Positions 5,347 to 40,295 of a stretch of DNA of 64,000 nucleotides are shown one piece after another. The translations under genes were made by a program, and so were the position numbers. Source of the stretch: Allosphingosinicella vermicomposti (GTDB taxonomy: Bacteria > Pseudomonadota > Alphaproteobacteria > Sphingomonadales > Sphingomonadaceae); assembly GCF_003012815.1 (NCBI RefSeq), contig NZ_PXYJ01000002.1, positions 372,001-436,000 of the forward strand. Reading direction: 5' to 3'. Each line of letters opens with the position of its first letter. The stretch's first letter is position 1. The notes under the pieces were generated by a model. It saw only the letters and a program-made list of their open reading frames with translations. It ran no database searches and had not been told where the DNA came from.

Positions 5347-5536
5347 CCAATCCCTTCCAATGTAGGGTTTCTTCTGCCAGCGTCGCGGGATGCCGCTCCC
5401 TCCCCATCCCAAGCGCACGCCTCACACGACAAGCCCGTTTCCGCGCATCAAAGCGAGCCCTGGAAAACATCGTCAGAGCATCAATTTCATCAACTTTCCC
5501 TCGAAGCCATCCAACAGCTCAGGCTCAGCTTGGCGG

Positions 5537-19488: not shown

Positions 19489-19641
19489 AAAACCATTTTC
19501 CTACAGCCCAACCGCCATGTTACGCCCCCTCCGCTCATTCTTCCCGTGAACCTGCCCGGCCATTCCCGGACTCGCGACGGAAGCGGAAACTGACAATACT
19601 GACGGTTTGGTTGTGCGAACACATCAAATTCGTCAGCTTTC
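19489..19641 (+). mobile_element. Internally deleted copy of the 35008-35514 element
   Basis: The 18-mer AAAACCATTTTCCTACAG (19489-19506) is identical to the start of the element at 35496-35513 (other strand). It is followed by the shared ACCGCCATG, here opening a frame of only 10 codons. The far end, 19587-19641, aligns without gaps to the reverse complement of 35008-35062 at 43 of 55 positions, including the shared stretches GTGCGAA, CATCAA and GTCAGCTT. The 140-codon gene found between the same ends at the other locus is missing here. It looks like a non-autonomous remnant. This is the only content of the 367-bp rpoC-glycosyltransferase gap besides the terminator and a small palindrome. 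Confidence 0.65.
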
Positions 19642-19757
19642 ACAGCGCGCCGCTCCCCGGCCCCGCTGTGGCGAGACTGCAATAGCCTGGGGGAAGGACA
19701 GGCATATGGCGCCGCGCGGCTTTGCCTTTTCGCCCCAAGCCGCTATCGAGCATCGCG

Positions 19758-31503: not shown

Positions 31504-32553
31504 ATGGCCGAGCCGAAGCCCAAGATCAGCCACCGTGAATATATCGAGCGGCTGGCGCTGACCCTGCTCATCGGCGGCCTCGCCCTCTTATTCTGGGCGC
31601 TGCGCGACGTTTTGATCCTCATCTTCGCGGCGGTCCTGGTCGCCGTCATTTTTCGCATTCTCGCCAACCCCATCGGGCGGCGGCTGGGCGTTCCGCACGG
31701 TGTGGCGCTCGGCATTTCGGTGCTTATCGTCATCGCGGTGTTCGCGACATCCATGTGGCTGTTCGGCGCGGAGATCGTTGCGCAATCGAGCACGTTGCAA
31801 CGGACAATCCCGGGCGCGTGGGAGCAGTTGCTTCAGCGGCTGGAGCCGATCGGCCTTGCCGATCCGCTCCGGCAATGGATGGCGGGTGTCGGGCGGGGCG
31901 ACGGTGTCGTGTCCAACATTGGCGGTCTCGCCCTTTCCTTCGGCAATGGCCTTGCCGACACATTGCTTGTCCTGTTCGGCGGCATCTATCTGGCGGCCCA
32001 GCCGGACCTTTACCGGCGGGGCGTCATCAAGATGATCCCGCCGCGGGGCCGGGGCCTTACCGCCCGCGCGCTGGACGATAGCTGGAAGGCGCTGCGGCTG
32101 TGGCTGCTCGGGCGGCTGGTATCGATGGTGACGGTCGGCATCCTGACCTTCATCGGCCTGTCGATTATCGGCATTCCTGCGGCTCTTACCCTTGGCCTCC
32201 TTTCCGGCATTCTCGAATTCGTACCCTTCCTCGGGCCGATCGTATCGGCGATCCCCGCCGTCCTTCTCGCCATCGCGGTCAGCCCGGAGGCGGCGTTGTG
32301 GACGATCGGGCTTTACCTTCTGGTCCAGCAGATCGAGGGTAACCTTCTCGAACCGCTGGTCCAGCAGCGTGCCGTGACATTGCCCCCTGCCCTGCTCCTC
32401 TTTTCCCTCGTCATCGGCGGGTTGCTGTTCGGCGTACCCGGCATCCTCGTCGCGGCCCCCTTGCTCGTCGTCATCTATGTGATGGTGAAACGGCTCTATA
32501 TCCGCACCGCCCTCCACACCCGGACACCGATACCGGGCGAGAAAGTGCGCTAG
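31504..32553 (+). CDS. AI-2E/PerM family transporter
   Basis: A 349-residue inner-membrane protein with about eight hydrophobic helices, starting LALTLLIGGLALLFWALRDVLILIFAAVLVAVIF (in two helices, about 18-50). The C-terminal part has the family-typical GILEFVPFLGPIVSAIPAVLLA and QQIEGNLLEPLVQQRAVTLPPALLL. Start ATG 31504 follows ACGAGGG and is better than the upstream in-frame start at 31444. Members export or take up diverse small molecules; the name does not prove AI-2 transport. The stop codon overlaps the stop of the convergent E1-like gene in a shared CTAG. Confidence 0.88.
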   Translation: MAEPKPKISHREYIERLALTLLIGGLALLFWALRDVLILIFAAVLVAVIFRILANPIGRRLGVPHGVALGISVLIVIAVFATSMWLFGAEIVAQSSTLQRTIPGAWEQLLQRLEPIGLADPLRQWMAGVGRGDGVVSNIGGLALSFGNGLADTLLVLFGGIYLAAQPDLYRRGVIKMIPPRGRGLTARALDDSWKALRLWLLGRLVSMVTVGILTFIGLSIIGIPAALTLGLLSGILEFVPFLGPIVSAIPAVLLAIAVSPEAALWTIGLYLLVQQIEGNLLEPLVQQRAVTLPPALLLFSLVIGGLLFGVPGILVAAPLLVVIYVMVKRLYIRTALHTRTPIPGEKVR

Positions 32554-34865
32554 CGGATAAGCAGCTCCGCCACCGCGTCCACCACCGCATCGACATCGAG
32601 GCGGTAATAACGATAGAGGTCGCCCAGATTGCCGGTCTGGCCGAAACGATCGAGCCCAAGCGGGCTGACGCGATGGCCGTGGACGCCGCCGAGCCACGAA
32701 AGCGCGGCGGGTGCGCCGTCGAGCAGGGTCACAAGGCCCGCATTGCGCGACAAGGGCGCGAGCAATTTTTCGATGTGGCTTTGGCCTGCATCGCCGCCCG
32801 CCCAACGTCCGGCCATGCCCTGGCTCCAGCCGCGATGGAGGAGGTCGGGCGAGGTGACGGCAAGGAGGCCGAGGCCGGGGAGGTCGTCATTCAAGGCTTC
32901 CCATGCGACAAGGGCTTCAGGTGCGATGGCGCCGGAATAGATGATGGCGGCCTCGGCGCCCGGCGCGGGTTCGCGGAGCCAATAGGCGCCTGCGATGGCG
33001 TCGGTTTTCCACGCCTCGTCCGGGCGATCAATCTGCGCGATGCTGCGCGTGGTGAGACGGAGATAGATGCTTTCACCATCTTCGCGCTGCATCAGGCGGA
33101 AGCCTTCTTCCATGAACAAGGCGAGTTCGTCGACGAAGGCGGGTTCGTAATGACGCAGTCCCGGCTGGCCCATCGCGATGAGCGGCGGGTTGATCGACTG
33201 GTGCGCGCCGCCTTCCGGCCCGAGCGTCACGCCGGACGGGGTCGCGACGAGCATGAAGCGCGCATCCTGATAACAAGCGTAGTTGAGCGCATCGAGGCCG
33301 CGCGCGATGAAGGGATCGTAGACGGTGCCGATCGGGAAAAGCCGCTCGCCGAACAAATCGCCCGCGAGGCCCATGGCGGCGAGCATCAGGAAGAGGTTGT
33401 TTTCCGCAATACCGAGCTCGACATGCTGGCCCGCCTGGTGTCCGCTCCACTTTTGCGGGCTGGGGATTTTCGCCTTGGCGAAGACGTCGGGAAGCTCGCC
33501 GCGCCGGAACAGGCCGCGCTGGTTCACCCAGGCGCCGAGATTGGTGGAGACGGTGACGTCGGGCGATGTCGTCACGATCCGGTCGGCGAGCGCCCCGCCC
33601 GCGCGGGAGAGATCGAGCAAAATCTTGCCGAACGCGGCCTGCGTCGATTGCTCCTCGCCCGCAGGCGGCGCGATGGCCGGGACGTCGGCGACATTCCAGG
33701 GACGCGCACGCTTTTCGCGGGCGATGTGGGCGCGTTCGACCACAGTCTTCACAGCTTCCGCGCTGTTGCCGCCGAGGCCCGCATAAGGCGCCCATTCGTC
33801 GCCCTCTGCGATCCCCATACGGCTGCGGAGTTCGGCAATCTGGCCGGGGTTCATCAGGCCAGCATGATTGTCCTTGTGGCCCGCGAAGGGTAGGCCCTGC
33901 CCCTTCACCGTATAAGCGATGAAGAGGGTCGGCACATCGTCCTGCGCGCCGTCGAAGGCTTCGACGAGCGCCGCCATGTCGTGGCCGCCGAGGTTCGTCA
34001 GGAGGGAGTGGAGAGCATCGTCGTCGCGTGCGTCGAGGATCGGCTTCACGTCCGGCGCGTCGTTCAACAGCCGTTCGCGCCACGCCGCGCCCCCGAGATA
34101 GGAGAGCGCGGCATAATCGGCATTGGGCACGGCTTCGAGCCAGTCGCGGAGGGCCGCGCCGCCTGTCTCCTCAAACGCGGCTTCCAGCGCCTTGCCATAT
34201 TTCAGCGTGACGACGCGCCAGCCGCAGCTCGCGAAGATTTCCTCGAAGCGGCGGAACATGCGGTCGGCGGTCGTGGCGTCGAGCGACTGGCGGTTATAAT
34301 CGACGATCCACCAGCAATTGCGGATGTCGTGCTTATAGGCCTCGATCAGGCATTCGTAGATATTGCCTTCGTCGAGCTCCGCATCGCCCATCAGCGCGAC
34401 CATGCGGCCCGTCTCTTCCGGCGCCAGCATATTGTGGGCGACGAGATAATCCTGGATCAGCGAGGCAAAGGCGGTGATCGCGACGCCGAGGCCGACCGAA
34501 CCGGTGGAGAAATCGACCGGAATCTTGTCCTTGGTCCGGCTGGGATAGCTTTGCATCCCGCCAAAACCGCGGAAATTCTGAAGCTGCTCCAGGCTCTGTG
34601 AACCGAGCAGATAGTGGATGGCGTGGAGCACCGGCCCGGCATGGGGCTTCACCGCGACCTTGTCGTTGGGGCCCAGCGCATGGAAATAGAGCGCGGCCAT
34701 GATCGCGGTCATCGACGCGCAGCTTGCCTGATGGCCGCCCACCTTCAGCCCATCCACGCTCTCGCGGATGTGATTGGCGTTGTGGATTGTCCAGGAGGAC
34801 AGCCAACGCAGGCGATCGTCGAGGAGACGGAGGGCTTCAAGGTCGGGCGCGGTTTTCGTGAGCAT
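32550..34865 (-). CDS. Transketolase-like homodimeric 2-oxoacid dehydrogenase E1
   Basis: A 771-residue thiamine-diphosphate enzyme built like AceE/transketolase: N-terminal ThDP-binding domain with GDAELDEGNIYECL and WWIVDYNRQSLD (about 165-200), a central pyrimidine domain with GQHVELGIAENNLFLMLAAMG and a C-terminal domain. It is shorter than E. coli AceE (about 890). Databases often label this type simply 'transketolase'. The motif is GDA instead of the common GDG at the metal site. No E2/E3 follow it directly; the branched-chain complex genes lie 1.8 kb further on and already have their own E1. The real substrate is therefore uncertain. Single gene, convergent with the permease. Confidence 0.75.
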   Translation of the reverse strand: MLTKTAPDLEALRLLDDRLRWLSSWTIHNANHIRESVDGLKVGGHQASCASMTAIMAALYFHALGPNDKVAVKPHAGPVLHAIHYLLGSQSLEQLQNFRGFGGMQSYPSRTKDKIPVDFSTGSVGLGVAITAFASLIQDYLVAHNMLAPEETGRMVALMGDAELDEGNIYECLIEAYKHDIRNCWWIVDYNRQSLDATTADRMFRRFEEIFASCGWRVVTLKYGKALEAAFEETGGAALRDWLEAVPNADYAALSYLGGAAWRERLLNDAPDVKPILDARDDDALHSLLTNLGGHDMAALVEAFDGAQDDVPTLFIAYTVKGQGLPFAGHKDNHAGLMNPGQIAELRSRMGIAEGDEWAPYAGLGGNSAEAVKTVVERAHIAREKRARPWNVADVPAIAPPAGEEQSTQAAFGKILLDLSRAGGALADRIVTTSPDVTVSTNLGAWVNQRGLFRRGELPDVFAKAKIPSPQKWSGHQAGQHVELGIAENNLFLMLAAMGLAGDLFGERLFPIGTVYDPFIARGLDALNYACYQDARFMLVATPSGVTLGPEGGAHQSINPPLIAMGQPGLRHYEPAFVDELALFMEEGFRLMQREDGESIYLRLTTRSIAQIDRPDEAWKTDAIAGAYWLREPAPGAEAAIIYSGAIAPEALVAWEALNDDLPGLGLLAVTSPDLLHRGWSQGMAGRWAGGDAGQSHIEKLLAPLSRNAGLVTLLDGAPAALSWLGGVHGHRVSPLGLDRFGQTGNLGDLYRYYRLDVDAVVDAVAELLIR

Positions 34866-34911: not shown

Positions 34912-34989
34912 ACGTCATTCCAGCGAAAGCTGGAATCTCTTCTAGCCTTTTAAAGAGAAGTGAGATTCCGGCTTTCGCCGGAATGACGT
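34912..34989. repeat. CGTCATTCC-type palindromic repeat
   Basis: ACGTCATTCCAGCGAAAGC..GGAATCTC faces GAGATTCCGGCTTTCGCCG..GAATGACGT: two imperfect hairpins facing each other. A second copy is at 45103-45183. Confidence 0.85.
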
Positions 34990-35007
34990 GGAGAGCGGCG
35001 GGGCGCG

Positions 35008-35514
35008 GAAGCTGACAGTGTTGATGCTTTCGCACGACGAAACTGTCAGTTTTGACAGTTTTCGGTCGTGTCCAGCCGCTCCGCCGCCCGCTCGAGCGCG
35101 CTCAGAGTGCGGAACAGGGCGCGGTGATCGGACCTTTGGACGAAGCCGATCAGGCGCCCGCGATAATAGCGAGGAACGAGCATCACATCGTCCCGCATGC
35201 CCGGCAATGCGGCTTCCAGCGCGACGCCGATGCCACAGGCAAAATCCTGAGCGGCATCCCAGGCGGCGGCGAAACTTTCAGCGCCGGGCTTCCTGCGCAG
35301 CGCATAAGCGGTCTGGCGGCTCTTCCCCTCGCGACGGGCGGCGACGGACGGGCCGTCACCGCGTGCCAGAGAGATGATGAAGCGGCGCTGCGCGTCCGCC
35401 GTCCAGCCATCGTGGCGAGCGCGCGTGGAGACAGGCGTGAAGCGCAGGAAATCGGGAAGGTCGTCCATGGCGGTGAACCTAAGCCTATGACCATTCTGTA
35501 GGAAAATGGTTTTT
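35008..35514 (-). mobile_element. Single-gene element with termini shared with 19489-19641
   Basis: On the minus strand it starts with AAAACCATTTTCCTACAG (35513-35496), then a gene for a 140-residue HTH-like protein (35468-35046), and ends with a segment containing the perfect inverted repeat AAACTGTCA-AAAC-TGACAGTTT (35041-35062), GTGCGAA, CATCAA and GTCAGCTT. Both ends recur at 19489-19641 in the opposite strand orientation, where the gene is absent. Shared ends around different interiors suggest a mobilised unit. Exact borders and target duplications are not determined. Confidence 0.6.
35046..35468 (-). CDS. HTH-like protein inside a repeated element
   Basis: A 140-residue protein starting MDDLPDFLRFTPVSTRARHDGW. 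Residues about 22-60 (TADAQRRFIISLARGDG, SVAARREGKSRQTAYALRRK) look like a helix-turn-helix as in small terminase subunits and transposase-type HTHs: a charged helix, then AARxxGxSRQTAYxLR. The middle has GAESFAAAWDAAQDFA. The last codons (ENCQN) lie in the element's conserved terminal segment. The start at 35468 is preferred since the upstream extension translates the element's other conserved end. I recall proteins of this shape as frequent, multi-copy and unnamed in sphingomonads but cannot check this. Likely DNA binding; whether it moves the element or regulates through the repeats is open. Confidence 0.7.
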   Translation of the reverse strand: MDDLPDFLRFTPVSTRARHDGWTADAQRRFIISLARGDGPSVAARREGKSRQTAYALRRKPGAESFAAAWDAAQDFACGIGVALEAALPGMRDDVMLVPRYYRGRLIGFVQRSDHRALFRTLSALERAAERLDTTENCQN

Positions 35515-36697: not shown

Positions 36698-38005
36698 TCA
36701 CCGCATCGAGAGCAGTTTCAGCGGGTTTTCGATCAGCTTCTTCAGATCCTGCATGAAACTCGCGGCGTCCCAGCCATCCACCACGCGATGGTCGCAAGAG
36801 ATGGAGAGGTTCATCCGCTTGCGGATTTCGAGTTCGCCGTCGATGACGACCGGCTTTTCCTCCACCTTGTTGACCGCGATGATCGCGACTTCCGGGCGGT
36901 TGATGACCGGGGTCGAGACGACGCCGCCCATGGGCCCCAAGCTCGAAATGGTAATGGTCGAGCCGCTGAGTTCCTCGCGCGTCGCCTTGCCGGTGCGGGC
37001 GACGTCGGCAAGGCGCTTGATTTCGGCGGCCAAGGCCCAGATGTCGCGGCTTTCAGCGTTGCGGATCACCGCGACGGAGAGGCCGTTATCGGTCTGGGTC
37101 GCCATGCCCATATGGACCGCGCCCGAACGGGTGATGACATTGGCTTCGTCATCATAACGGGCGTTGATCTGCGGATAATCGGCCAGCGTCCGGCTCATCG
37201 CCGTGATGAGGAAGGGGAGCAGAGTGAGCTTCGGGTTGCTGCCTCTGTCCGCATTTATCATCGCCCGTGTCTGTTCGAGCGCGGTGACGTCATATTCCTC
37301 GACATAGGTGAAATGCGGGATGCGGCGCTTTGCTTCCTGCATATTCTCCGCAATCTTGCGACGCAGGCCGACGACCTTGACCTGTTCGTCAGCGCGCGGG
37401 GCGTAGCCACGCGCGGAGACCGAACCGCCATTGTAGAGGAGATAGGCGTCGAGATCGGCGTGGCGAACGCGGTCCGATGCGGTGCGGACCTGGGCGAGGT
37501 CGATACCGAGATCGCGGGCGCGCTGGCGGACTGCGGGCGAGGCGAGGACGTGCGCCTTCTTCTCTTCCGCACCACCCTCGTTCGTGCCGAGCGCAGTCGA
37601 GGCGCGCTGTTCGGTGTCTGTGACACGCCCCTCGACTTCGCTCGGGACGAACGTCTCTTGGGTGGAGGGGATTGCTTCCTCGATCTCGGGTGTGGGTTCA
37701 ATCAGCCCATCGCCGAGCGCCACGGTATCGTGCCGCTCTTCCTCGGCCGGAGCGGCGACTTCGCCCTCCGTTTCGAACACGACGAGGACGGAGCCGATGG
37801 CGATCTGGTCGCCCACTTCGCCCGCGAGCGAGACGACCTTGCCGGACACCGGGGCTTCCATTTCCACGGTCGCCTTATCGGTCATCATGTCGGCGATCTG
37901 CTGGTCTTCCTTGACCATATCGCCGACCTTGATGTGCCATGCGACGATTTCGGCCTCCGCGATGCCTTCGCCGATGTCGGGCAGCTTGAATTCGAAGCGC
38001 GCCAT
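36698..38005 (-). CDS. bkdC: Branched-chain 2-oxoacid dehydrogenase E2 (dihydrolipoyl acyltransferase)
   Basis: A 435-residue E2 core. Lipoyl domain at 1-77 with the lipoylated lysine in TDKATVEME (K44); peripheral-subunit-binding domain at about 150-185 (LASPAVRQRARDLGIDLAQV); catalytic domain to the end with SCDHRVVDG, whose His and Asp are the acyltransfer residues. The linker between lipoyl and binding domains carries about 27 residues (FVPSEVEGRV...ASTALGTNE) coded by a palindromic repeat of the intergenic CGTTCGTGC type (37577-37653). ATG 38005 is 5 bp after the E1beta stop. Last gene of an E1alpha-E1beta-E2 operon; no E3 (lpdA) follows in the window. Confidence 0.93.
   Translation of the reverse strand: MARFEFKLPDIGEGIAEAEIVAWHIKVGDMVKEDQQIADMMTDKATVEMEAPVSGKVVSLAGEVGDQIAIGSVLVVFETEGEVAAPAEEERHDTVALGDGLIEPTPEIEEAIPSTQETFVPSEVEGRVTDTEQRASTALGTNEGGAEEKKAHVLASPAVRQRARDLGIDLAQVRTASDRVRHADLDAYLLYNGGSVSARGYAPRADEQVKVVGLRRKIAENMQEAKRRIPHFTYVEEYDVTALEQTRAMINADRGSNPKLTLLPFLITAMSRTLADYPQINARYDDEANVITRSGAVHMGMATQTDNGLSVAVIRNAESRDIWALAAEIKRLADVARTGKATREELSGSTITISSLGPMGGVVSTPVINRPEVAIIAVNKVEEKPVVIDGELEIRKRMNLSISCDHRVVDGWDAASFMQDLKKLIENPLKLLSMR
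37577..37653. repeat. CGTTCGTGC-type palindrome inserted in frame in bkdC
   Basis: CGTTCGT (37579-37585) pairs with ACGAACG (37647-37653), and GAGCGCAGTCGAGG (37589-37602) pairs with CCTCGACTTCGCTC (37630-37643) with one mismatch. The same sequence type is intergenic at 40955-41069 and 61215-61346. Confidence 0.85.
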
Positions 38006-38010
38006 GAGGG

Positions 38011-40295
<2,285 letters not shown>

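Follow-up and report, generated by a model that had tools for sequence, protein, structure and literature searches.

The window analysed here is a stretch of 64,000 nucleotides from the genome of Allosphingosinicella vermicomposti (G000; 2.5 Mb in 6 contigs), whose nearest relative in our set is G053. It carries a gene for a helix-turn-helix (HTH) protein of the small-terminase (TerS) family, which is set between a short box upstream and a conserved site core at its 3′ end (Table 1). The six nucleotides AAACCA that precede the TTTTCCTACA box are recurrent as well. The gene is not adjacent to terL; it is flanked by an AceE-like gene and a short ORF. The AceE/transketolase-like gene (32550-34865) lies on one side of the module and a ketoacid dehydrogenase E1-beta/E2 pair (36698-39024) on the other, all of these names being read from translations. 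An inverted repeat, CGTCATTCCAGCGAAAGCTGGAATCTC ... GAGATTCCGGCTTTCGCCGGAATGACG, adjoins the core at 34913-34988, and palindromes like it are repeated also beside some other gene-less copies of the module (solos). A simple REP element was considered for the locus and rejected, this neighbouring palindrome being a different repeat.

Table 1. Positions and strands of the module and of related sites in the window
Feature	Coordinates	Strand	Remarks
TerS-family (HTH) protein gene, 140 aa	35046..35468	-	ATG at 35468, stop codon at 35046-35048
TTTTCCTACA promoter box (-35-like, putative)	35497..35506	-	starts 38 nt before the ATG
Family-1 site core, 62 nt	35004..35065	-	overlaps the last codons and the stop codon of the gene
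Perfect AAACTGTCA-N4-TGACAGTTT inverted repeat	35040..35061	.	inside the family-1 core
Gene-less copy (solo) of family 1	19489..19647	+	box 19496-19505, spacer, core about 19583-19644
Family-2 site core	5460..5506	+	same core as in paralogue L004/L096; without a recognisable promoter box

The original prediction, made from the window alone, held that the gene is bounded by sequences recurring elsewhere and that its last codons lie in a conserved terminus with a perfect repeat. Both statements were confirmed: the sequences of both ends recur in the genome, and the stop codon falls within the perfect AAACTGTCA-N4-TGACAGTTT repeat. At up to three mismatches this repeat had two matches in the window against 0.03 expected, and seven sites in the whole genome, with none for the reversed pattern. 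The sequence YTTTCCTACA occurs twice in the window, before the gene and in the solo (0.01 expected). All seven palindrome-like sites fitted one module, in which the TTTTCCTACA box is followed by a spacer, occupied by the gene at our locus, and then by the core; the boxes of these seven modules have at most one mismatch to YTKTCCTACA. The core, which we call family 1, has the layout GGAAACTGNCAAAACTGAC..GTGCGAA..TCAA..GTCAGCTT with small variations and is made of repeats spaced by 9 bp. A sequence model of its 62 nucleotides matched eight places in this genome, namely the window gene and seven gene-less places, and eight in G053, with one further weak match on the opposite strand at one such place in each genome. 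At E ≤ 0.01 no match was found in the other 24 of the 26 genomes searched in the genus. Six of the eight places lie 60-90 nt behind a box.

Of the conserved termini that had been predicted, the recurrence stood and the equivalence of the two ends did not. The right end is the putative promoter box, which is present also at homologues without the core, and cores occur as well without a box close by. The idea of an element turned moreover on whether ends are shared and whether orthologues stay in place. The ends recur, and six of the eight family-1 places have a syntenic counterpart in G053. In Sphingomonas MAGs, two orthologues of the window gene, 52-55% identical to it, end in a related repeat, TTGTCAC-N2-TTGACAC, which spans the stop codon. 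Their module sits upstream of an ftsH-like gene (name read from the translation) and not at the locus of the window, which indicates that it was relocated over longer times.

The family of the protein was approached through its homologues. Among 67 that were aligned, 61 match the terminase small subunit phrog_4044 (best E 2.4e-24), and three also match phrog_157, a transposase (best E 0.0017). As a single sequence, the window protein reached only E 0.17 with phrog_4044 (TerS of PHROGs) and E 0.055 with Pfam HTH_23, had no NCBIfam match, and gave no transposase match in either Pfam or NCBIfam. The TerS encoded upstream of terL in the gene-transfer-agent (GTA) cluster of this genome (L149:7464-8102, HTH present) matches phrog_4044 with an E value of 4.7e-16, and the paralogue L004 with 5.9e-12. 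A profile built from 22 homologues recovered the GTA TerS of this genome with a probability of 97.2 over 108 columns, the template being a single sequence; pairwise BLAST between the window protein and the same GTA TerS was not significant. The AlphaFold model of the window protein (pLDDT 89) has helices at 24-59, a helix at 64-87, strands at 95-113 and a helix at 115-138, that is, an N-terminal HTH followed by a helical/beta-hairpin core as in TerS. When this model was searched with Foldseek against BFVD, the named matches were terminase small subunits (E 7.9e-5, 1.3e-4 and 3.4e-4), with TM-scores of about 0.4. Against the PDB, Sf6 TerS appeared at a probability of 0.80 but with an E value of 0.88, and no fold match reached E ≤ 0.001; the PDB sequence search returned a single match, an antibody chain at E 0.81. 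In viral contigs 24 stretches fitted a pattern, and none of them was confirmed as a relative. These data support well, for the family, that the window protein belongs to the relatives of the GTA small terminase. The suggestion of a domesticated phage small terminase thus finds good support at the level of the family, in phrog_4044, in the similarity to the GTA TerS and in the fold.

Another TerS paralogue of this genome is L004/L096. The core contained in the 3′ part of that reading frame, ..GCATCAATTTCATCAACTTTCCCTCGAAG.., differs from family 1. This family-2 core was found in L004, in its G053 counterpart, in a relative in G259 and at 10 further places here. The family-2 model had 16 matches in G053, the paralogue of that genome included, and weak matches in 6 more of 249 genomes, those in G068, G106 and G167 looking like chance. 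Eight of 11 family-2 places are syntenic between G000 and G053, a comparison that covered 11 of the 16 matching G053 loci; the family-2 core in the window was not found at the matching place of G053. In G259, one variant lies within the homologous TerS-like gene and a second one behind an endolysin-like and before a holin-like gene, as in this genome. The lysis cassette of this genome (L066, G000:C1:201897; L112, G000:C1:201266) reads box, GH108 endolysin, family-2 core and GTA_holin_3TM, and the position of its core is also occupied in G053 and G259.

Of 62 box loci in G132 and G136, 20 that have no TerS-like gene show a third core, GGGTGACAGGGTGTAACTTGTGTAACCC, behind the box; the model was built from 11 of these 20 loci, and five of the other nine have E ≤ 1e-5. 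This model matches the stop codon of L142 (core 666-698, frame end 679; E 5.4e-5) and that of L233 (core 647-681, frame end 650; E 1.6e-7), and it places a core about 80 nt past the frame of the TerS-like gene L252 (E 0.006). The interval between glyS and ppdK (names from translations) contains a family-2 core in G000 (L114) and G053 (L107), and the third core instead in G136 (L246). Different cores in different geometry were also seen near an orthologous short-chain dehydrogenase gene in G000 and G136, which may be chance.

Different TerS paralogues thus go with different recurring cores. Recognition helices of the type SRQ(S/T)A(Y/H), present in seven genes, pair with TGACA/TGTCA-type cores, and those of the type S(A/S)Q(A/S)AY, present in three genes, with CATCAA cores; the comparison concerned chosen genes from few lineages, and 16 of 19 were found. 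A generic test for inverted repeats around the stop codons of 80 homologues, summarised for 79 of them, gave a mean arm of 7.38 against 7.13 in shuffled sequences and hence no enrichment, so that a core at the stop codon is claimed only for some of the homologues, those of the core families described here. A conserved peptide as the origin of the core was also considered and rejected, its invariant columns having no codon pattern by eye.

The placement of box and core was then compared between the two species. Allowing one mismatch, a box was found in the 230 nt before the core at 13 of 19 places in G000 and 15 of 19 in G053, against two and none for the reversed pattern; within 230 nt downstream of the core, no box was found at any of the 19 places in either genome. 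The distance from box to core is 60-107 nt in 27 of the 28 box-bearing places. Two cores, L102 and L114, have no box nearby. In syntenic pairs the core is the best-conserved part, with an identity of 0.81 (11 pairs), followed by the box stretch with 0.69 (9 pairs), the 60 nt after the core with 0.62 (11 pairs) and the spacer with 0.55 (9 pairs). Conservation is clear for the core and extends to the box, with modestly conserved surroundings, but not to the presumed transcript that separates the two, an argument against a function as RNA. The spacing of 24 sites along G053 was like random. A comparison for empty sites set ten loci against six stretches, and placement was possible for L102 only: this core was not found in G053, in an interval too diverged to show an insertion boundary.

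Homologues elsewhere also carry the box. Among the first 34 homologue loci examined, a CCTAC(A)-type box, defined by a loose pattern, lies upstream in 29. Of 80 homologues taken from named genomes across the Sphingomonadaceae, 51 have an exact YTKTCCTACA within 200 nt upstream (reversed pattern 0) and 58 have it with at most one mismatch (reversed pattern 4); in downstream stretches of equal length it was found, at up to one mismatch, in none of 79. The box typically begins 35-40 nt ahead of the probable start codon. We infer that it acts as a promoter, and the spacing would fit leaderless transcription. An AACC-N(4-5)-GGTT-like sequence follows some of the boxes (L066, L003, L041, L042, L261) and is possibly an operator between -35-like and -10-like elements.

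YTTTCCTACA was counted 22 times in this genome (reversed pattern 10), 42 times in G136 (6) and 20 times in G132 (11). Six of the 22 boxes of this genome precede other genes or nothing clear, as is expected from the count of the reversed pattern. At L069, L070, L119 and L258 the box precedes genes for universal-stress-like, PspC-like and small unknown proteins (read from translations), which are either further members of a regulon or chance. A DUF6456 gene lies behind the box in all three genomes examined, which belong to three genera (this genome, G132 and G136; Pfam E 2.9e-41, 6.6e-38 and 1.3e-41). GTA lysis genes do so in the same three: the box leads a GH108 endolysin and then GTA_holin_3TM in this genome, and it precedes the GTA holin in G132 and G136. 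Homologues of GafA, the GTA activator of R. capsulatus, are annotated as DUF6456 (PMC9638019). The box may be under the control of such a DUF6456 activator. The GTA head operon of this genome (terS-terL) has no box within two mismatches and, by reading, a TTGACA-type sequence upstream instead, which counts against a simple 'GTA promoter'. Two or more TerS-like copies were counted in 111 of the 147 genomes that have a GTA holin and in 11 of the 52 without one (Fisher p 8e-12; 199 genomes, with a statistic that ignores phylogeny). Fewer than two copies were found in 36 of the 147 holin-bearing genomes, and six genomes without a detected GTA holin carry 4-7.

To account for a TerS relative, a common box and recurrent, largely syntenic cores, one of them over the stop codon of the gene, we propose that a TerS paralogue with its cognate pac-like core biases the sites at which GTA packaging starts, a reading to which we give a little less than an even chance. 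It suggests that GTA packaging in sphingomonads may not be random. The window gene would be a paralogue of the GTA small terminase, which within the packaging motor is the subunit that recognises DNA, and would be transcribed, apparently leaderless, from the YTTTCCTACA promoter that it has in common with the DUF6456 activator homologue and the lysis genes. The pac-like core of 9-bp-spaced repeats across the stop codon would be the recognition site of the protein itself, and the gene-less copies of promoter and core would be further such sites, scattered along the chromosome. Once a cell turns to GTA production, the protein would occupy the cores and recruit the GTA large terminase (TerL) to them; packaging would then start preferentially at the cores, the own gene included, rather than randomly, and transcription through the site might help to load the motor. 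The reading is weakened by the missing box at the head operon, by the random-like spacing of the G053 sites and by the adjoining promoter, which pac function alone does not explain. A self-binding regulator whose sites mark its copies had been among the first suggestions for this gene, and it is half right: sites that look cognate do mark the gene and seven gene-less places, and the protein would bind them.

The main rival keeps the recognition of the cores and gives it another outcome. An HTH protein derived from TerS would bind the cores behind the YTTTCCTACA promoter and block, terminate or anti-terminate transcription, that of its own gene included, the dispersed copies being regulated transcription units. 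The set distance of the box upstream of the core at the 13 and 15 places given above, with none downstream, fits this, and several solos lie upstream of fabF, ilvE, panB and typA (names read from translations) and are co-oriented with them. Behind some solos, however, the next gene is read from the other strand (L007, L012 and, by reading, L011), the cores L102 and L114 have no box nearby, and family and fold are those of TerS; such a regulator is a serious possibility that we rate as rather doubtful. A multicopy family of small RNAs, made from the common promoter and with its 3′ part carried in the window gene, seems very improbable. It would account for a box followed by a conserved 3′ block, and the family-1 core can be drawn with hairpins, but conservation is lowest in the spacer, which would be transcribed, the folding z-scores run from +0.5 to -3.6, and Rfam gave no match to the element, only a tRNA elsewhere in one locus and chance matches below threshold.

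RAYT-REP elements consist of a gene and dispersed palindromic sites, a likeness that extends to our module, and a REP-associated element moved in trans had been suggested. The gene-less copies would be short non-autonomous derivatives of the gene-bearing element, mobilised by an enzyme provided in trans. The solos do retain both modules at similar distances, L102 is lacking in G053, the orthologous module is at another locus in the two MAGs, and three homologues have the weak match to a transposase family. The window protein itself, unlike RAYT, has no Pfam or NCBIfam transposase match. Against movement stand the synteny of most family-1 and family-2 places between two species and, by eye, the lack of terminal inverted repeats and target duplications; the two modules differ from each other. 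The 5′ 'end', moreover, is a box present family-wide, also at homologues without a family-1 core, the glyS-ppdK interval of a different genus carries a core from a different family, and the one absent site offers no readable insertion boundary. The suggestion of movement in trans is therefore not supported, and we regard a mobile element as improbable.

In P22, pac lies within the terS gene. The TerS of this phage recognises short pseudo-pac sites in Salmonella and starts the packaging of host DNA there (PMC11226127); those sites are resemblances to a phage site, whereas the cores described here are a family of many copies that comes with a promoter box and is syntenic between species. In role and neighbourhood, the GTA TerS encoded here resembles RcGTA gp1 (Sherlock 2019, PMC6854486), and it has the family phrog_4044 in common with the homologues of the window protein. 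According to that report, gp1 appears to lack an HTH or other specific DNA-binding domain and binds DNA non-specifically, and GTAs are described as packaging host DNA seemingly at random (PMC6854486, PMC7947584); the window protein differs in having an HTH, in the position of its gene away from terL and in the recurring site. Discrete packaging start sites were reportedly not found for RcGTA (PMC7947584). Directed packaging from the cores would thus set the sphingomonads apart from the RcGTA model.

SaPI TerS redirects the packaging motor of a helper to its own DNA (PMC8494744), and an additional TerS is a likeness of our module to SaPI and other PICIs, with the GTA as the would-be helper. A TerS relative is present, together with a putative packaging site suggested by the recurrence of the core. 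Unlike a PICI, the module has this single gene between its two ends, with no integrase, excision, replication or capsid genes, and many gene-less copies of the site at syntenic intergenic places of the host. A new kind of minimal GTA satellite is conceivable, in which one TerS paralogue and a pac-like site stand behind a GTA-type promoter and gene-less copies of promoter and site were amplified along the chromosome because GTAs preferentially package, and pass on, the DNA next to them; this is in our view unlikely, though worth keeping in mind. In the literature searched, subscription journals and preprints aside, no description of the module was found.

If the module were such a satellite, sphingomonad GTAs would begin packaging at numerous scattered start sites peculiar to each lineage, and the repertoire of these sites would switch from lineage to lineage as the TerS paralogues change. 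HTH-bearing relatives of TerS, together with recurring sites and a GTA-type box, make directed GTA packaging testable in sphingomonads. If true, it would show how a packaging-specificity module gets duplicated, diversified and dispersed.
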